Assembly (NCBI RefSeq): GCF_008933115.1
Contig: NZ_WBVO01000004.1
Span: forward strand, 124,001-188,000
Reading direction: 5' to 3'
DNA: 64,000 nt
Source: Phaeocystidibacter luteus
Lineage (GTDB): Bacteria > Bacteroidota > Bacteroidia > Flavobacteriales > Schleiferiaceae
This document shows positions 3,351 through 64,000 of the stretch, in pieces. Position 1 is the stretch's first letter; every line of letters begins with the position of its first letter. The notes beneath the pieces were generated by a model, which was not told the origin of the DNA, ran no database searches, and was given only the letters and a program-made list of their open reading frames with translations. Position numbers and translations under genes: made by a program.

Positions 3351-3785
3351 ATGAAATTCTCATTTCCTTTCGCCGTAATTCTCGCTTTTGGATTCTCTAT
3401 CACAACATATGCTCAGGATCAAACCTTGGCTTCAATGTCGGATTGCGATTCATTTGTGGACAGCACTATGCACATGTTTTATGTCGGCGACTTCGAGAAG
3501 CTGGGTTCAGCCATGGCTCCATATTGGCCGGTGGAGGAAACCGTTCAGAATGAGGTGATGGCCAAGGGGCATGATGCGTTTGAGTTTTTCAAGGCGACGT
3601 ATGGAGGACCGTTCGAAATCGTCAAAGGCAAGACCTCGGTAATTGAAGGTTTGGGAATCCGCTACACCATGTACCTAAAGTTCGAAACCCACGCCTTGCG
3701 GGTGTACTACTATTTCTACGAAGGGGTGAATGGGTACTTCCTAAACTCCTACGGTTTCGATGTAAACTGGAAAGAAGACTTTTAG
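3351..3785 (+). CDS. Secreted protein of unknown function
   Basis: The chosen start gives 144 residues beginning with a clean signal peptide (MKFSFPFAVILAFGFSITTYAQ). An in-frame ATG 27 bases upstream (3324) would put a charged leader before it and is less likely. The mature part of about 120 residues is a mixed alpha/beta domain rich in aromatics, of the size of small periplasmic NTF2-like proteins, but I see no decisive motif. Its stop overlaps the stop of the convergent M16 peptidase gene by four bases. Confidence 0.6.
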   Translation: MKFSFPFAVILAFGFSITTYAQDQTLASMSDCDSFVDSTMHMFYVGDFEKLGSAMAPYWPVEETVQNEVMAKGHDAFEFFKATYGGPFEIVKGKTSVIEGLGIRYTMYLKFETHALRVYYYFYEGVNGYFLNSYGFDVNWKEDF

Positions 3786-5014
3786 CGAGCCTTGTACACA
3801 AGGGTGCTGAGTTGGTCGGGATCAAAAGCCTCATTGGCCACACGAAGAATGGCATCCGAAGTCACCGATTCGATTCGCTCTGCAATCTCTTCGAAGGTGT
3901 CAATCTTGTTATAGTGGAGCAAGGTTCTACCTTGGCCAATCATGGAGCTGGCGTTGTTCTCTTGTGACAAGGCAATTTGGCCAAGCAATTGCTGCTTTGC
4001 TTTCTTAAGCTGAACTACACCTAGTTTTTTCTCCCGAAGTAAACGCAGCTCTCGGTGGATTAGCCTGAGACTTCGATCAATGGTTCCTTTGTCTGTTCCC
4101 ACATACACCCCAAATGTGCCCGTATCGGTATATGGCGTATAAAAGGATTCGATGTTGTATGCAAAACCGTACTTCTCACGGATGTTGAGGTTTAGTCTTG
4201 AGTTCATACCAGGACCACCAAGCAGGTTGTTCAAGAGAATCATGGCGCTTAGGTCGGCATGATGCAGGCCATATCCACGATTGCCAATGATGGCATGCGT
4301 CTGATACGTTTCCTTGTTCTCGAACTGATACGTGGTCTTGTATTCATTGATCGGGCGACGATGGTAGCGTGGGTCACCGGTAGGCAAATCGCTCGCGTAC
4401 TTGTCGATCCACTTCTTGACATCCGCAAAGTCGAATCTACCAACAATGCTGAACACCATTCGCTCTGGTGAATAGTGTTTTTGCATCCAATCCATCAATC
4501 TCGAACGGTCTATTTCGGCGAGGCTTTCCGGCGTGCCCAAAATATTTCGTCCAATGGGATGCCCGGAGAACAGGAGATCTTCGAAATCATCAAAAATGAG
4601 TTCGCTTGGAGAATCGAGATAAGACGAAATTTCGTCGTTGATTACATCGCGCTCCTTGTTCACCTCCTTTTCAGGCATGACAGACTGGAAAGCAATTTCG
4701 AAGAGTAGTTCAATGGCTCTTGGCAAATGGCGTTCGAGCACGGAGGCGTGGAGAATAGTTTCCTCCTTACCCGTATATGCGTTGAGCTCGCCACCTACAT
4801 CTTCGAGTCGGCTGAGAATGTGATATGCCTTGCGTTTCTTCGTCCCTTTAAACAACACATGCTCAATAAAGTGAGCCATGCCCTGTTCATTATCATTCTC
4901 ATCACGCGACCCCACATTAATAATCAAACCACAGTGCGCAACAGGGCTATCCACATATCTGTGAACCACGCGCAAACCATTGGGTAGAGTTAATATTTGG
5001 TGTGGGGTTTCCAT
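3782..5014 (-). CDS. M16 family zinc peptidase (processing-peptidase-like, cytoplasmic)
   Basis: A 410-residue insulinase-family metallopeptidase. The inverted zinc motif HFIEH is at 48-52, with the third ligand Glu at about 128 (ERDVINDEI). The C-terminal half has the R/Y substrate-binding region (RLNLNIREKYGFAYN). I chose the ATG at 5012-5014. The open frame continues 93 bases further upstream, but that part would be translated from the hairpin array. The start METPHQILTLPNGLRVV matches the usual M16 start, and a TACTTTCG box lies between the array and the ATG on the minus strand. There is no signal peptide, unlike the pair at 14.3-17.7 kb. Homologs in this phylum are single-gene, single-domain peptidases of unclear substrate. 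Confidence 0.92.
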   Translation of the reverse strand: METPHQILTLPNGLRVVHRYVDSPVAHCGLIINVGSRDENDNEQGMAHFIEHVLFKGTKKRKAYHILSRLEDVGGELNAYTGKEETILHASVLERHLPRAIELLFEIAFQSVMPEKEVNKERDVINDEISSYLDSPSELIFDDFEDLLFSGHPIGRNILGTPESLAEIDRSRLMDWMQKHYSPERMVFSIVGRFDFADVKKWIDKYASDLPTGDPRYHRRPINEYKTTYQFENKETYQTHAIIGNRGYGLHHADLSAMILLNNLLGGPGMNSRLNLNIREKYGFAYNIESFYTPYTDTGTFGVYVGTDKGTIDRSLRLIHRELRLLREKKLGVVQLKKAKQQLLGQIALSQENNASSMIGQGRTLLHYNKIDTFEEIAERIESVTSDAILRVANEAFDPDQLSTLVYKAR

Positions 5015-5045: not shown

Positions 5046-5303
5046 CCCGCCAGTTGGCGGGGGATTAAGGTGCTGCGCACAAGACTAGCTGCGCTAGTAA
5101 GGCTCACTTTGTTCGCAAGGCGCTTCGCGCAAGGCAGCGTAGCTGCAAGGACTAGCGGGGCTAGTAAGGCTCACTTCGTTCGCAAGGTGCTGCGCACAAG
5201 ACTAGCTGCGCTAGTAAGGCTCACTTTGTTCGCAAGGCGCTTCGCGCAAGGCAGCGGGGCTGCAAGGACTAGCTGCGCTAGTAAGACTCACTTCGTTCGT
5301 AAG
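5046..5303 (+). repeat. AAG-linked mini-hairpin array, locus I left half
   Basis: About 15 short inverted repeats joined by the triplet AAG. After a first palindrome (CCCGCC-AGTT-GGCGGG, 5046-5061) come two exact 117-bp tandem copies (5070-5186 and 5187-5303), each of seven hairpins. The types are GTGC-TGC-GCAC, ACTAGC-TGC-GCTAGT, GCTCAC-TTT-GTTCGC, GCGC-TTC-GCGC, GCAGC-GTA-GCTGC, ACTAGC-GGG-GCTAGT and GCTCAC-TTC-GTTCGC. The copies differ only in loops (GTA/GGG, GGG/TGC) and in one closing pair changed on both sides (G...C to A...T). The array starts 31 bp upstream of the M16 start codon and ends 73 bp before the four-helix-bundle gene. The class is unknown to me. Confidence 0.9.
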
Positions 5304-5376
5304 GGTGAAACGTCAGTAAACGGAAGTAAACGTTTATTCTACGACTATTAAGCCACTGAATCATTTTTTTGTTAAG

Positions 5377-5736
5377 ATGAAATCGGATTTAAAAGTGTTG
5401 GTCCATGTTCAATTGGAAATGACTCATGAGCATTGCATACTACTACGTAAGAAGGACATTCGATGTGATCTTGCACATCAATTAGAAAAGGCAAGTAGAA
5501 GCATCTCGAACAACTACCATGAAGGGTTTGCGACAAGATTTACTGGTGAGAAACTCAAGTTCTTTGATTACGCTAAGCGGTCAGCAGCTGAAGTCAGAGG
5601 AATGTTGAAAGAGCGGAAGTATTATTCTGCTGTGAGTTCTCAAGAGATTCAAGAGTTAGATTCCATTTTGAAAGAAATCGACACTCAGTTTATTAAGCTT
5701 ATCAGCTTTTTTAAAAAGAGAAAGGGTCAAGTGTAA
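5377..5736 (+). CDS. Four-helix-bundle protein, S23 / 23S rRNA intervening-sequence protein family
   Basis: A 119-residue, highly helical, basic protein. The segment at about 36-50 (LEKASRSISNNYHEG), followed by KLKFFDYAKRSAAEVRGML, fits the family core QLrrAa.SI..Ni.EG...s..ef..fl..A..S..E. Known relatives are the proteins encoded inside 23S rRNA intervening sequences and the bAvd accessory proteins of diversity-generating retroelements, which form pentameric barrels and bind nucleic acid. The His-Glu-Gly replacing the usual Ala-Glu-Gly is a small divergence. No rRNA or reverse transcriptase gene is near. The gene sits exactly between two oppositely oriented hairpin arrays, as the intervening-sequence ORF sits between inverted repeats. 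A functional link is inference. Confidence 0.75.
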   Translation: MKSDLKVLVHVQLEMTHEHCILLRKKDIRCDLAHQLEKASRSISNNYHEGFATRFTGEKLKFFDYAKRSAAEVRGMLKERKYYSAVSSQEIQELDSILKEIDTQFIKLISFFKKRKGQV

Positions 5737-5818
5737 CTCAACCCTTTCACTATTCTATTCTCCTGTGTGAAGTGCTTTCAACGCGTTTCGACTCGCAGCA
5801 CATTGTGTAAATCGCACT

Positions 5819-6070
5819 TGCCTTCCCGACGAGTCTTGCACGGAGCGCCTTATCACCGGAGGTGATTCTTGCGAGCATCGCGAGCCTTAACAGCAAAGCT
5901 GTTCTTGTGAACGAAGTGAACCTTGCGCGCAGCTAGTCCTTCCGGCCCCGCTGCTGCCTTGCGCAACGCGCCTTACTCACGCAGTGAGTCTTACTAGCTC
6001 TGCTAGTCTTATGCGAAGCATCATACTACCTCCGGTAGTCTTTGCGCCCTGCGCCTTAATCTTTCAGATT
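5819..6070 (+). repeat. CTT-linked mini-hairpin array, locus I right half
   Basis: On the plus strand the linkers are CTT, the reverse complement of the left half. Clear units include ATCACC-GGA-GGTGAT, AACAGC-AAA-GCTGTT, GTGAAC-GAA-GTGAAC (tandem G.A mismatches), ACTCAC-GCA-GTGAGT, ACTAGC-TCT-GCTAGT, ATGC-GAA-GCAT, ACTACC-TCC-GGTAGT and GCGC-CCT-GCGC. The last hairpin, AATCT-TTC-AGATT, spans the stop codon of the S9 peptidase gene. The part before about 5846 is more degenerate. It is less regular than the left half and has no exact higher-order tandem copy. Confidence 0.85.
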
Positions 6071-8122
6071 CTCTCCCAACCACCTAAAAAACTCACTATG
6101 CCACACCATACCATTCTGCGGGTTCAACACCCAATGGCCTTCGTTAGGGAAGTAGAGGAAGCGCGATTCTACGCCCTGAAGTTGGGCGGCGTTGAATGCC
6201 TCCATGCCCTGGTTTTCCGGTACACGGAAGTCCTTTCCACCATGGATTACGAGAATAGGCGTGTCCCAATTCTGTACAAACTTGGCGGGATTGTATTGCG
6301 TGTAGCTGAGCGGCTGAGGCGATTGCCAATACGGTCCGCCTAGGTCCCAATTTGCGAAGAATAGTTCCTCAGTGGAGCCATACCAGCTTTCCATATTGAA
6401 GAGTCCACAGTGACTGATGAATGCGCTAAAGCGACCTTCGTGAATTCCAGCCAACATGTAAACGCTGTAGCCTCCATAGCTGGCTCCTACTGCACCGAGA
6501 TTCTCGGTATCCACGTATGGTTCTTTGGCAACATCATCAATTGCAGCGAGGTAGTCGCGCATGGCTTGTCCACCCCAATCGCCGGAAATCTGCTCGTTCC
6601 ATTCTGAACCGAAGCCTTGAACACCGCGACGGTTAGGAGCTACTACAATATAGCCTTGGGCCGCCATCACCTGGAAGTTCCAGCGGTAGCTGTAAAATTG
6701 ACTCACCGGACTTTGTGGTCCGCCTTGGCAATAAAGAAGCGTTGGGTACTTCTTGGTTTCATCGAAGTCTGGCGGGTAAATCACCCAAGTGAGCATTTCC
6801 TTACCGTCACTGGTTTCTACCATGCGCTTTTCAATTCGGCTGAGGTCGGTGAGGTTGTAAATGCCGTCGTTTACATGGGTGAGCTGTCGAACCTCTTCGT
6901 CTTCTTCAAGGATGAAGATCTCAGTAGCATGGTTCATATCCTGACGCTCCGCAAATACGAGGTCATCCATTGCATGGAATCCATTGTAGTTGTAATCACC
7001 AGAAGTGAGGAACTCCATTTCGTAGCTGATGCGCTCGTCTTTTTTGATTCGGCCTAACTCAATTTCCGCAAGCTGTTGCGTAGCCATGGTTGGAACGTTT
7101 ACAACCAACTCATCATCTTCAACCCACTGGAAGTCATTGATGTACTCTACTTGTAAATCGTCGGCTTCACCGAGTATAGAAGTGAAGTTCTTAGCAATAT
7201 CGTAAATCGCCAAGCGGTTCTCATCCGACTCGTAGCCGTCGTGAGCCATAGAGGTGAATGCGAGGTATTTGTTGTTAGGTGAGAACTGTGGATGCGTGTC
7301 GTATCCCATTTGGCCTGGGACGTTCATAGTTTCACCTGTTTCAACATTATAAAGACGAATAACGCTGTTCGTTGAAACGGCAAAATCTTTACCTACAGCT
7401 TCTTTAGTGCTATAAGCGATGTACTTGCCATCCGTACTCATCGTGAAGCTTTCACTTCCACTAAAAGGTGGAATCGGGCACTCGAACTGCGAGCCTTTCA
7501 TCAAATGTGTGTAATCCGTTCCTTCGGATTCAATCATCTTCTCGCCGGAAAGGTCGAGGGAGCCAAATGCGGGATGATTCACATATTCGTCGCTCCAGTG
7601 ATCCCAGTGGCGATACATCAAATCGTCTATAATTCTGAAATCGGCCTGCTTGAGCGCTGGGTACTTGTCTTCCGAAGTTTCGAAAACCTTCTCGCGAACA
7701 CTGAAGAGAAGCTTCCAGCTTCCATCCTTCATCTTCATTGGCTTGAAGTTACCTGAACCCTCAGGCAGGTTGGTGAGCTTTTCAGGTGTGCCTCCAACTT
7801 CGGTGATCCAATATTGGCCGTCCTTTGCGTAGCCGATATGAGTTTCATCAAAGAAAACGGCAGCTCCTTCGCTACCTGGAAGGTCTATGACGAGACGTGG
7901 CTCGTCCGATTCTACGTTGTAGATGTACAAGTCACGTTCGCTAGAGTTCTCCTCTAAATTGTATCGAGTAACTCCATAGAGAACGAGGTTTCCGTCTTCC
8001 GATACATCTTCCATCGACACTCTTCCGAGTGACCAAAGAAGGTCTGGAGTCATAATCTGAGATTGAGCCGAGGAGGTAAGCATTGCTCCCGTTGCCATAA
8101 TTGATAGGATTATCTTCTTCAT
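6056..8122 (-). CDS. Secreted S9 family prolyl-oligopeptidase-type serine peptidase
   Basis: 688 residues from the ATG that begins a signal peptide (MKKIILSIMATGAMLTSSAQ); a start 36 bases upstream lacks support. A seven-bladed-propeller-like N-terminal part is followed by an alpha/beta-hydrolase domain. Catalytic residues by motif are Ser548 in GASYGGYS, Asp631 in HGGKDFRVP and His663 in NEGHWV. These periplasmic enzymes (dipeptidyl or acylaminoacyl peptidases) cleave peptides, often after proline, in protein-feeding Bacteroidota. It is the last gene of the serS-to-S9 minus-strand run, 43 bp after the CoA-transferase gene. Its final codons overlap the terminal hairpin of the adjacent array. 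Confidence 0.93.
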   Translation of the reverse strand: MKKIILSIMATGAMLTSSAQSQIMTPDLLWSLGRVSMEDVSEDGNLVLYGVTRYNLEENSSERDLYIYNVESDEPRLVIDLPGSEGAAVFFDETHIGYAKDGQYWITEVGGTPEKLTNLPEGSGNFKPMKMKDGSWKLLFSVREKVFETSEDKYPALKQADFRIIDDLMYRHWDHWSDEYVNHPAFGSLDLSGEKMIESEGTDYTHLMKGSQFECPIPPFSGSESFTMSTDGKYIAYSTKEAVGKDFAVSTNSVIRLYNVETGETMNVPGQMGYDTHPQFSPNNKYLAFTSMAHDGYESDENRLAIYDIAKNFTSILGEADDLQVEYINDFQWVEDDELVVNVPTMATQQLAEIELGRIKKDERISYEMEFLTSGDYNYNGFHAMDDLVFAERQDMNHATEIFILEEDEEVRQLTHVNDGIYNLTDLSRIEKRMVETSDGKEMLTWVIYPPDFDETKKYPTLLYCQGGPQSPVSQFYSYRWNFQVMAAQGYIVVAPNRRGVQGFGSEWNEQISGDWGGQAMRDYLAAIDDVAKEPYVDTENLGAVGASYGGYSVYMLAGIHEGRFSAFISHCGLFNMESWYGSTEELFFANWDLGGPYWQSPQPLSYTQYNPAKFVQNWDTPILVIHGGKDFRVPENQGMEAFNAAQLQGVESRFLYFPNEGHWVLNPQNGMVWHSEFFRWLGENLKD

Positions 8123-8165
8123 GAGCGATTCTTTTTGCGAACCGTGAAGATAAGGCATTCGCGGG

Positions 8166-18681: not shown

Positions 18682-18890
18682 GCGCGGAGCGAAAGCTCCG
18701 CACAAGTCAACCACCTTTGGTGGGTTGAAAGGTCCGCTTGTAGCGGACAAGGCTTATCGCCTTCCGGCGAATCGCAAGATGATCCGCATTAGTCGGCAGG
18801 CTGCTTTTTTCGCAGAAAGCGAAAACTTGATAGGCTGACGCAGGAAGCCAATCCTTAATTTGCATTAGCAAATTCTTGCGCTCCGCGCCT
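18682..18890 (+). repeat. Mini-hairpin array, locus II (AAG half then CTT half)
   Basis: The left half has AAG-linked hairpins: GCGGAGC-GAAA-GCTCCGC (18684-18701), a 9-10 bp stem with a TTT loop (18706-18727), GTCCGC-TTGTA-GCGGAC, and a longer imperfect hairpin ending GGCGAATCGC. The right half has CTT-linked hairpins: AATTTGC-ATTA-GCAAATT and GCGC-TCC-GCGC. The centre (about 18780-18850) is not clearly hairpinned. Both ends touch -7-like boxes of the flanking divergent genes, TATCTTTA on the left (minus strand) and TATCTTTG on the right. It is the smallest complete AAG-to-CTT array in the window. Confidence 0.8.
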
Positions 18891-18898
18891 TATCTTTG
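18891..18898 (+). promoter_or_regulatory. -7 promoter box (TATCTTTG) for heme A synthase gene
   Basis: A perfect TAnnTTTG lies 18 bp before the ATG and directly follows the last hairpin of the array (its first T doubles as linker base). No TTTG sits at the correct -33 distance, so the array itself occupies the upstream promoter region. Confidence 0.55.
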
Positions 18899-29897: not shown

Positions 29898-30372
29898 TGT
29901 TGGGATTTTGGGGATGAAATTCGAAGCTAGTGAAAATGGGGGTAATGGGGGCTTGTGTTTAGGGTGAAAGGAGGAATCATGGCGGGGGGAGTTGTGTTGG
30001 GGGATGGGTGGACTAATGGACCTATAGACCTACAGACTTATTGACTTATGGACTTATGGACTGGTTGACTGAAGGGGTGGGCTAGCCGGTGTTGCCCGGG
30101 GCCGCTTCCCGCGACCCCACTTTCAAGATCGGAATTTGATTCGGGGTAAGTCGGAGGTTAAACGTTTACTTTCGTTTGCAAACGGATTGCTGAAAATAGG
30201 GGTGTGAGATTCGAGGGAATGGCTGGGATCTTCGTAACTTCAACACATGGGGTGGAGGAGGTGGCCCCCGCTCGCCCCCAGTCCAACCGAGCAGTCTACC
30301 GAAGATACCATTTCATCCCCAACACCCACATTTCTCACCCTCCCCCTCTTATCTCAGTATCCCATCTTTCAT
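29898..30372. other. 475-bp intergenic region with an 8-bp tandem repeat
   Basis: This divergent region between ltaE and prfB holds no credible gene. At 30013-30072 there are seven and a half degenerate 8-bp units (CTAATGGA, CCTATAGA, CCTACAGA, CTTATTGA, CTTATGGA, CTTATGGA, CTGGTTGA, CTGA). The surroundings are G-rich on the plus strand. An open frame upstream of prfB runs through 30204-30386 but has no start signal and unlike composition. Confidence 0.7.
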
Positions 30373-37329: not shown

Positions 37330-37336
37330 GTTTTTG

Positions 37337-37400
37337 GAGGGTTAGAGGGTTAGAGGGTTGGAGGGTTAGAGGGTTAGAGGGTTGGAGGGTTGGAGGGTTG
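37337..37400 (+). repeat. Eight perfect 8-bp tandem units (GAGGGTTR)
   Basis: Eight consecutive units GAGGGTTA or GAGGGTTG with no indels (order A,A,G,A,A,G,G,G for the last base). The G-runs resemble telomere-like DNA and could form a G-quadruplex on the plus strand. It lies just after a terminator in noncoding DNA. Confidence 0.9.
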
Positions 37401-37453
37401 GACTTTGGCGAGGAGCTAATCTAGGTCATTAGGATTTTGATCTTCTTTAATTT

Positions 37454-37815
37454 TAAGTCGCTTGACACCCGTCCATTTTTGCGATTTTCTACTCAGTCCG
37501 ATGAGTTAAAATCAAGAATTTGCGATTTTGCCTTTTGCGCGAAACATACACACGCCGCGCTCTCTTTTCCGCGCCAGCGGAATCCTTTCACATCTTCAGA
37601 AGGCGAGTTGTTATCCATTTGAATAGGTAAGTCGCTTGACACCTATTCATTTTGCGTTTTCTACTCGGTTCGATGAGTTGAAATCAAGTAATTGCGATTT
37701 TGCTTTTTGCGAATTTGCAGCTTGCCCGCCAGCCGGCGGGAGAAGCATACACACGCCGCACGCTCTTTTCCGCACCAGCGGAATCCTTTCACATCCGCCG
37801 AAGGCGTATTGTGAT
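37454..37815 (+). repeat. Two tandem copies of an approx. 175-190 bp noncoding repeat
   Basis: Copy 1 starts at 37454 and copy 2 at 37628. Both begin TAAGTCGCTTGACACC. Both share GATGAGTT followed by AAATCAAG, then ATACACACGCCG, then a TTCCGC-[GA]CCA-GCGGAA hairpin, then AATCCTTTCACAT. Copy 2 carries an extra insert of about 30 bp with a CCCGCC-AGCC-GGCGGG palindrome, the same kind of palindrome that begins the hairpin array at 5046. It ends about 25 bp before the stop of the DUF389 gene. No coding function is seen. Confidence 0.8.
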
Positions 37816-37841
37816 CCTTTTGCCGAGGCACGAGGCAATCC

Positions 37842-61579: not shown

Positions 61580-61960
61580 GGGCAGCAAGCTGCAAGGTGC
61601 TGTGCACAAGACAGCGAAGCTGTAAGATGCTTTGCATAAGTCAGCCATTCGGCTGAAAGGCACTTTGTGCAAGACAGCAGGGCTGTAAGGATCTTGCCTG
61701 CGGCAGATCAAGGCACTTCGTGCAAGACAGCGGAGCTGTAAGGATCTTGCCTGCGGCAGATCAAGGCACTTCGTGCAAGACAGCGGAGCTGTAAGGATCT
61801 TGCCTGCGGCAGATCAAGGCACTTCGTGCAAGACAGCGGAGCTGTAAGATGCTTTGCATAAGTCAGCCATTCGGCTGAAAGGCACTTCGTGCAAGACAGC
61901 AGGGCTGTAAGATGCTTCGCATAAGTCGGCCATCGGGCTTAAAGACAGCCAAGCCATAAA
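61580..61960 (+). repeat. AAG-linked mini-hairpin array, locus III left half
   Basis: It begins with GCAGC-AA-GCTGC and GTGC-TGT-GCAC. Then come AAG-linked hairpins of types ACAGC-NNN-GCTGT, ATGC-TTT-GCAT, TCAGCC-ATTC-GGCTGA and GCAC-TTC-GTGC, plus a 20-nt hairpin with GATC arms. A three-hairpin 53-bp unit repeats exactly three times (61687, 61740, 61793). A 63-bp four-hairpin block occurs on both sides of it (about 61626 and 61849). The start is 36 bp upstream of the lipoprotein ATG. Confidence 0.9.
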
Positions 61961-61982
61961 GCTTTTGCCTGCGGTAGAACAT

Positions 61983-62765
61983 ACGCACAGCGTCTAACGA
62001 ATGAAATGAGTCTTGCAGCTCTGCTGCCTTGCGACCGCAGGGCGCCCTTCCGACGATAGGAGGACTTACGCGCAGCGTCTTACGAATGAAATGAGTCTTG
62101 CAGCTTTGGTGCCTTGCGACCGCAGGGCGCCTTTCCGACGATAGGAGGACTTACGCGCAGCGTTTTACGATTGAAATGAGTCTTGCAGCTCTGCTGCCTT
62201 GCGACCGCAGGGCGCCTTTCCGACGATAGGAGGACTTACGCGCAGCGCCTTACGAATGAAATGAGTCTTGCAGCTGTGCTGCCTTGCAACCGAAGGGCGC
62301 CTTTCCGACGACAGGAGGACTTGCGCATAGCGCCTTACGAATGAAATGAGTCTTGCAGCTTTGCTGCCTTGCAACCGAAGGGCGCCTTTCCGACGATAGG
62401 AGGACTTACGCGTAGCGTTTTACGAATGAAATGAGTCTTACAGCTTTGCTGCCTTGCGACCGCAGGGCGCCTTTCCGACTATAGGAGGACTTACGCGCAG
62501 CGTTTTACGAATGAAATGAGTCTTACAGCTTTGGTGCCTTGCGACCGCAGGGCGCCTTTCCGACTATAGGAGGACTTACGCGCAGCGTTTTACGAATGAA
62601 ATGAGTCTTGCAGCTTTGCTGCCTTGCGACCGCAGGGCGCCTTTCCGACGATAGGAGGACTTACGCACAGCGTCTTACGAATGAAATGAGTCTTGCAGCT
62701 CTGCTGCCATGCGACCGCAGGACGCCTTTCCGCCAATAGGCGGACTTATTCGCCGCCAGGCGAAT
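61983..62765 (+). repeat. CTT-linked mini-hairpin array, locus III right half: nine exact 85-bp units
   Basis: Nine tandem units of exactly 85 bp start at 61983, 62068, 62153, 62238, 62323, 62408, 62493, 62578 and 62663. Each unit has five hairpins with CTT (or near-CTT) linkers: ACGC-GCA-GCGT; ACGAAT-GAA-ATGAGT with tandem G.A mismatches; GCAGC-TTT-GCTGC; GCGACC-GCA-GGGCGC; TCCGAC-GATA-GGAGGA. A last hairpin, ATTCGCC-GCCA-GGCGAAT (62748-62765), closes the array at the stop codon of the MBL gene. Not a single indel occurs over 765 bp. Confidence 0.93.
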
Positions 62766-63842: not shown

Positions 63843-64000
63843 ATGCAGCGAAGCTGCAAGGTGCTTCGCACAAGTCAGCTTACAGCTGAAAGGCACTTTG
63901 TGCAAGACAGCGGGGCTGTAAGGATCTTGCCTGCGGCAGATCAAGGCACTTCGTGCAAGACAGCAGAGCTGTAAGATGCTTCGCATAAGTCGGCCATCGG
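63843..64000 (+). repeat. AAG-linked mini-hairpin array, locus IV left half (continues past window)
   Basis: It opens with GCAGC-GAA-GCTGC and GTGC-TTC-GCAC, then TCAGC-TTACA-GCTGA, GCAC-TTT-GTGC, ACAGC-GGG-GCTGT, the 20-nt GATC-arm hairpin, GCAC-TTC-GTGC, ACAGC-AGA-GCTGT and ATGC-TTC-GCAT. This is the same unit order as locus III left. It starts 37 bp upstream of the MBL start codon and is cut by the window edge, so any CTT half is not visible. Confidence 0.88.

Follow-up and report, generated by a model that had tools for sequence, protein, structure and literature searches.

The closest described relatives of the locus considered here are the intervening sequences (IVSs) of rRNA that encode an S23 protein. 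Sections of PMC4990558 describe rRNA IVSs with an S23 open reading frame (ORF) as having complementary ends and tandem heptamers before the ORF, and as being cleaved by RNase III; the function and origin of IVSs are called unclear there. According to portions of PMC11270868, 23S_rRNA_IVP ORFs lie at several sites in the 16S and 23S genes of CPR rRNA, and ORF-less insertions are reported in these genes alongside homing-endonuclease ones. A passage of PMC10053308 notes the resemblance of PF05635 to Avd. S23 genes also occur in cas loci: part of PMC3936711 counts 18 such genes, one of them between cmr3 and cmr2, and 23S rRNA IVP appears in a legend of PMC10910872 on adaptation-module associations. 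The parts of PMC4679880 that deal with intergenic heptamers in Beggiatoaceae contain none of the S23 terms looked for, and a search of open-licence papers found no account of S23 gene-plus-arms elements in operons such as those described below.

Locus I lies in a window of 64,000 nucleotides, the whole stretch of DNA that was analysed. We consider it probable that this locus belongs to a family of small insertion elements, in which an S23 gene lies between inverted arms of short repeated units, and which forms the protein-operon counterpart of the rRNA IVS. The features of the locus, in window coordinates, are as follows.

3782 to 5014, minus strand: M16 peptidase gene, a neighbour, 82% and 81% identical in two congeners (profile, sequence comparison)
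5067 to 5304, plus strand: left arm, an AAG-spaced hairpin half-array with two 117-nt repeats that are 95% alike (repeat search, hairpin detector)
5327 to 5336, plus strand: TAAACGTTTA palindrome, 50 nt upstream of the S23 gene (upstream-region comparison)
5377 to 5736, plus strand: S23 / 23S_rRNA_IVP four-helix-bundle gene, 119 aa (profiles, model, Foldseek)
about 5817 to 6055, minus strand: right arm, a CTT half-array, the inverted counterpart of the left arm (repeat search, hairpin detector)
6056 to 8158, minus strand: S9 prolyl oligopeptidase gene, a neighbour, 74% and 77% identical in two congeners (profile, sequence comparison)

The centre between the half-arrays spans 5305 to about 5816 and contains the 119-aa ORF. 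This ORF is matched by the PF05635 profile (E 3.4e-12, 47.0 bits against a cut-off of 33.8) and by TIGR02436 (E 2e-12, 47.3 bits against a cut-off of 24), and by these profiles it belongs to the S23 / 23S_rRNA_IVP family. A model of the protein, predicted from 57 sequences (pLDDT 87.3, pTM 0.79), has four helices, at residues 2-24, 30-52, 56-78 and 88-117. With the model as the Foldseek query, the nearest solved structures were the S23 proteins 2gsc and 2rld (TM 0.64-0.79, best E 1.1e-3), followed by one talin fragment and one Legionella effector chain, and then by Avd 4dwl and the DGR particle 8ub7, with the Avd chains at TM 0.60-0.71 by query. Since none of these reached an E-value of 0.001, we base the fold match on the TM-scores by query, which range from 0.60 to 0.79. 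Profiles, Foldseek and the repeat and hairpin searches agree with the preliminary description of the locus as a 119-residue, Avd-related S23-family gene between an AAG half and a CTT half.

As to a position within an rRNA gene, the 64-kb window gave no Rfam match above gathering score, and the S23 gene is adjoined by peptidase genes. It lies antisense to both of these neighbours and probably has a promoter of its own. This orientation and the very long, hairpin-rich arms make locus I an atypical element. The TAAACGTTTA palindrome also precedes the other S23 gene of this genome exactly, and the orthologue in a congener with one mismatch. As a family-wide S23 site it was rejected, AAACGTTT being present in 3 of 61 S23 upstream regions, all from this genus. 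A k-mer search upstream of S23 genes gave no common motif; its hits were words resembling the arrays and others possibly derived from shared upstream genes.

The arms of locus I pair over stretches of 78, 68, 38 and 28 nt, at 79%, 82%, 87% and 93% complementarity, respectively. Our AAG-hairpin detector found 68 units in the window compared with 0-9 in ten block shuffles, and most of them cluster at four places, locus I (5070-6054) and arrays II (18732-18888), III (61581-62744) and IV (from 63861 to the end of the window). The predicted RNA fold of locus I contains 142 arm-arm pairs, against a mean of 18.7 and a maximum of 65 in 25 shuffles, and has an energy z of -11.8; that of the orthologous locus in congener G001 has an energy z of -6.0. 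Inverted flanks scoring at least 22 were found at only 4 of 502 predicted ORFs in the window and 28 other 20-kb stretches, namely the locus I gene with a score of 45, the orthologue in the congener with 48, and two ORFs in stretch L172 with 22 each. Locus I combines an S23 gene between inverted arms with complementary ends that are predicted to be able to close a stem round the ORF.

The orthologue in G001, at 43% identity, likewise lies between the S9 and M16 peptidase genes, where the M16 protein is 82% identical to that of the focal genome (G000), and it is flanked by arms of a different unit. The two arms of each locus match one another with scores of 79 in the focal genome and 50 in G001. 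Crossed arms of the two genomes score 22 and 14, left against left 23 and right against right 17, and the S23 genes score 65 against each other. Own arms score far above crossed arms and the gene score is 65; therefore, both arms of the locus have changed together while the gene is still recognisable. In the second congener, G002, the M16/S9 gap has by eye neither S23 gene nor arms, and a different open frame is present; empty gaps without any such insert were seen at other sites (see below).

A genome-wide profile search gave two S23 matches in the focal genome, locus I and a gene with an in-frame stop on contig C26 (L001). The preliminary description had held that S23 genes of this genome lying away from arrays would speak against its reading; the C26 gene also lies between inverted arrays, of the unit GGAGGGTT. 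These observations bear on the proposal that the arrays are independent, species-specific hairpin repeats that spread by slippage or through an unseen transposase, among which the S23 gene is found by chance or because such gaps tolerate it. This proposal is hard to reconcile with an orthologue likewise placed between inverted arms of another unit, with a second S23 gene between inverted arrays and with arms that match each other and not those of the orthologue. In a tree of S23 sequences, which has long branches and drew a program warning, the locus I gene and its orthologue are grouped together (100/99) and surrounded by S23 genes that this genus carries at other sites. A further observation from the genus is a decayed, reversed S23 remnant seen by eye in G002 (L139, 600-1500), which resembles the S23 pseudogene at the same place in the focal genome. 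The gene downstream of this remnant is presumably gdh-like.

We compared the flanks of S23 genes among order-level relatives. An S23 profile search gave 84 matches in 40 genomes (26 of them with a match at E 0.001), and 14 of these matches were left aside and 5 had short flanks, so that 65 were compared by their two 300-nt flanks. The inverted match between flanks reached z of at least 3 at 43 of the 65 genes, with 22 below, compared with 1 of 257 intervals drawn at random from these loci. Because random intervals are mostly coding, control genes offer the fairer comparison. A refined set comprised open frames of 95-170 aa, minus L056 and L027 and plus the pseudogene L001, and included 58 genes with long enough flanks. 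With exact gene ends and 250-nt flanks, 37 of these 58 had arm scores of at least 17 (21 below). The same score was reached by 4 of 79 control genes, and two of the four are S23 genes situated close together. The inverted match exceeded the direct match in 49 of the 58 loci, and in 28 loci the best partner of the left arm among all 58 right arms was its own, where 1 is expected. Between own arms, RNA prediction gave a median of 38 pairs, and 42 of 58 combinations had at least 20; for swapped arms the median was 11, and 80 of 232 combinations reached 20 pairs.

An independent named set of 80 loci from several phyla (77 with flanks, 73 with both neighbours) gave arm scores of at least 17 in 53 of 77 S23 loci (24 below) versus 11 of 67 control genes, a higher control rate than in the first set, a stronger inverted than direct match in 61 of 77, and the own arm ranking first in 22 of 77. 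A minority of S23 genes in each set lacks detectable arms. The arm units differ between S23 loci and are often 7-8 nt long by eye. A strict detector found arrays of 7- or 8-nt units beside 20 of 60 S23 genes, and on both sides in 4, whereas the remainder of these loci would lead one to expect about 0.02 per 600 nt.

These sequence comparisons show that the left and right arms of one locus are often each other's best match, and that the two arms of locus I are unlike those of its orthologue. They support the view that the gene and the inverted arrays beside it act as a single unit, and the arm excess in the two data sets further weakens the idea of independent arrays. The preliminary description had offered, as one reading, that arrays and protein are parts of one element. 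In a wider form this holds for S23 genes with matching inverted arms; the AAG/CTT unit was seen in this species alone. Its expectation that S23 genes of relatives would be flanked by AAG/CTT arrays was borne out at locus I alone among the 31 S23 loci first scanned, although inverted arrays of other units flank other S23 genes. AAG/CTT hairpins were therefore rejected as a general S23 partner, and the AAGRCAGCNNNGCTGYAAG AAG pattern, absent from 59 relatives, is found in 1 of 60 genomes, the focal one.

The window contains three further arrays, the first two of which are perhaps related to locus I.

18686 to 18893, unstranded: array II, AAG half then CTT half, gene-less (hairpin detector, congener comparison)
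61581 to 62744, unstranded: array III, AAG half (53-nt repeats) then CTT half (85-nt repeats), gene-less
63861 to 64000, plus strand: array IV, AAG half, with CTT-oriented units past the window at contig positions 188077-188180 (hairpin detector)

The genome-wide profile search gave no S23 match at arrays II-IV, in line with the earlier account of II and III as empty. Their units differ from those of locus I. Where array II stands in the focal genome, G001 has no array and G002 has a different one, and the site of array III could not be matched up in G002, where the adjoining gene order differs. The AAGRCAGCNNNGCTGYAAG pattern occurs 20 times in the focal genome, 18 times on the contig of the window and twice at ends of contigs C3 and C6. 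AAG-hairpin units stand at the very ends of these two contigs (L032, L033); therefore, the arrays probably break the assembly and more may exist unseen. In 960 kb sampled elsewhere, 60 kb of it from the focal genome, AAG hairpins nowhere formed clusters of three or more; such clusters are confined to the window, its continuation and the C3 and C6 ends in this sample.

Arrays of period 7 or 8 numbered 13 in 404 kb of the focal genus and 1 in 240 kb of other S23-bearing genomes. In four genomes without an S23 match (380 kb sampled) there were 2 such arrays and no AAG-hairpin clusters. The preliminary description had held that arrays in relatives lacking the family would speak against its reading; in this sample of such relatives the AAG type is absent and the period-7/8 type is not. 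Gene-less arrays are mainly a feature of the focal genus within our sample. As they are common there, arrays in this genus have a life apart from S23. This abundance, the restriction of the AAG pattern to one genome and the gene-less state of arrays II-IV speak for the idea of independent hairpin repeats; weighed against the evidence from arms, we hold that idea to be distinctly improbable as an account of locus I.

One gap of the genus holds heptamer and octamer arrays without a gene in the focal genome (L134, 2120-2800) and a full S23 element in G002, between genes that we take to be carboxyl-transferase-like and LepA-like. It is possible that arrays II-IV derive from S23 elements as gene-less copies of locus I, as had been proposed for them, because elements reduced to arms occur at another site in another genus (see below).

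Other repeats were noted in the window. An array of about 7-nt GGACTTA-like units lies between two open frames at 29990-30091, with a TTAAACGTTTA palindrome at 30158-30168. A GGAGGGTT/AGAGGGTT octamer array at 37334-37405, not seen in G001 or G002, shares its unit with the arms of the C26 S23 gene. Adjoining it at 37454-37822 are duplicated stretches of 26, 55 and 81 nt, 86-89% alike and 172-201 nt apart.

We next looked at the sites that S23 genes occupy. From 60 S23 genes, of which 5 lacked one or both neighbours, 42 of 55 point in the same direction as both neighbours, 6 are opposite to both and 7 are mixed. The corresponding figures for the named set are 65, 0 and 8 of 73. Ordinary predicted-gene triples (400 kb) also mostly share one direction (146 of 281, with 32 opposite to both); orientation alone is therefore not taken as proof of insertion. 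Neighbour pairs identified by profile, with one representative each, were scoA|scoB (L055), FadB-like|thiolase (L009), sdhA|sdhB (L084), split MetH halves (L079), paaG|paaH-like (L068), PTPS family|acyl transferase (L015), SRP GTPase|radical SAM protein with TRAM domain (L014), thiolase|acyl-CoA dehydrogenase (L074) and SRP54|FolD family (L077). Other S23 loci were assigned to these sites by eye from the ends of their neighbours. MetH was seen split into two genes with an S23 gene in the split in L079 (by profile, 345 + 885 aa) and in L063, L067 and L076 (by eye).

On plasmids, 25 records match one S23 query, and three were looked at in detail. Their S23 genes lie between ribonucleotide reductase subunits (antisense), at cas6|cas4 and at AAA ATPase|ParB, with inverted arm matches of z 12.0, 13.9 and 5.7, respectively; at cas6|cas4 the direct arm match is stronger than the inverted one. 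A phage collection gave no match for one canonical S23 query. A search of both locus sets for S23 genes lying in 23S rRNA, using five 23S motifs for each, returned one weak match (L091; 20-mer, up to 4 mismatches) that is probably due to chance, and such a location was rejected.

Gaps with and without S23 genes were compared at two sites. Among the best 30 of 81 sdhA|sdhB matches, the 4 gaps with an S23 gene measure 449-538 nt and the 23 without one 8-78 nt (3 unmeasured). Among the best 30 of 37 fadB|fadA matches, 11 gaps with an S23 gene measure 457-824 nt and 15 without one 2-132 nt (4 unmeasured). In the occupied gaps at both sites, an arm, the gene and a second arm make up the extra sequence, which starts at the stop codon of the upstream gene. 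In genus g4, the fadB|fadA gap contains a full element in G053 and arms without a gene in G005 (L293; 27-nt arm match, score 15), and by eye also in G054 (L311); the arm units of L293 and L311 resemble those of G053 by eye. In the focal genus, the gap beside the SRP GTPase gene holds a decayed S23 gene and an array in G001 and is short in G000 and G002, as judged by eye. As read from these comparisons of gaps, gene and arms are present or absent together at operon gaps that are otherwise tight, and the elements are insertions, most of them in sense with both neighbours.

The S23 tree combines signs of inheritance and of movement. Three unrelated clades occupy the scoA|scoB gap and two the sdhA|sdhB gap. 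Copies at paaG|paaH group together and metH copies adjoin, as if inherited. Movement is suggested by two scoA|scoB copies nested among those of metH and by two from sdhA|sdhB that stand next to the paaG|paaH copies. Across genera, S23 identity is 52-68% at the metH halves and 63-71% at paaG|paaH. The S23 gene might instead encode an operon-resident, autogenous RNA-binding regulator, with the arms as a cis-acting attenuator or processing site, all kept for the benefit of the host and not for mobility. The prevailing sense orientation is compatible with such a regulator, as are operon sites common to several genera with similar S23 genes (the metH halves and paaG|paaH). Against these stand the patchiness within the family in the gaps measured above (4 of 27 and 11 of 26), the use of one gap by unrelated S23 clades, the existence of a pseudogene and of arms-only remnants, and the antisense position of locus I. 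We therefore judge a regulator of this kind unlikely, though it keeps some weight.

No target duplication was seen by eye at the elements. One suggestion for how they might move is helper-dependent reverse transcription, by analogy with the part that Avd plays in diversity-generating retroelements, which would suit the likeness of the fold to Avd and to the DGR ribonucleoprotein and the sense bias in transcribed gaps. The focal genome, however, has no RVT_1 match at E 1e-5, and RVT_1 is also missing from G005, G018, G019 and G026, in spite of their 7, 8, 5 and 8 S23 matches. An RVT_1-type reverse transcriptase is therefore unneeded for keeping the elements; a reverse transcriptase helper in the same genome is unsupported, and we consider movement by this route very improbable.

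For the S23 gene and its inverted arms as an insertion element, we envisage the following course. In RNA, the arms would pair to form a long duplex, leaving the S23 reading frame in the loop. By analogy with the rRNA IVS, RNase III would cut this duplex and separate the host cistrons without harm. The S23 protein, Avd-like and probably a pentamer, may bind the RNA or DNA of its own element and, once bound, could help the element to persist or move. The arms would lengthen and turn over by slippage and conversion. One kind of element in transcribed gaps, cut from RNA at the arm duplex, is the simplest account of the precedents in rRNA IVSs, CPR and cas loci together with the present data.

S23 genes are common, with one peptide pattern matching at least 590 stretches in a collection of 84,980 species genomes, and in listings they appear as four helix bundle proteins to which no role is assigned. 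Our results suggest that the S23 gene-plus-arms unit found in many bacterial operons is a little-noticed class of insertion element. A wider reading is possible, though we lean slightly towards doubting it: S23 genes with inverted arms would be widespread mobile mRNA intervening sequences that sit in sense in operon gaps, are cut out of the transcript and need neither transposase nor reverse transcriptase of their own, with rRNA IVSs and cas-linked S23 genes as landings at those places and gene-less arrays such as II-IV as remains. Genes and arms that come and go together in protein operons make the question of IVS function and origin testable. Sites with presence and absence, arms that change in step and arms-only remnants offer a system outside rRNA, in which assays of cutting and of movement would leave the ribosomes untouched.

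Among known systems, the S23-encoding 23S rRNA IVSs, such as that of Coxiella in the parts of PMC4990558 that treat it, are alike in having an S23 ORF in the loop, complementary ends, heptamers by the ORF and a sporadic distribution. They lie in rRNA, whereas the present elements lie between protein genes, mostly in operon gaps, and locus I differs further in that its arms are long AAG-hairpin arrays and its gene is antisense to its neighbours. With Avd of diversity-generating retroelements (4dwl, 8ub7), the 119-aa protein shares a four-helix-bundle fold, as judged from its predicted model; this genome differs from one with such a retroelement in that the RVT_1 match to a reverse transcriptase is absent. 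MITE and REP-type palindromic repeats are gene-less inverted repeats scattered over intergenic gaps, as are gene-less arrays here, but the arm unit of the present elements differs between loci. Lastly, S23 genes of cas loci are alike in occupying the gap between two operon genes, with the plasmid gene at cas6|cas4 as an example from our own data. They are listed as a CRISPR-Cas-associated function, whereas the present data suggest a general operon-gap insertion, and this would be a simple explanation for the presence of S23 genes in cas operons.
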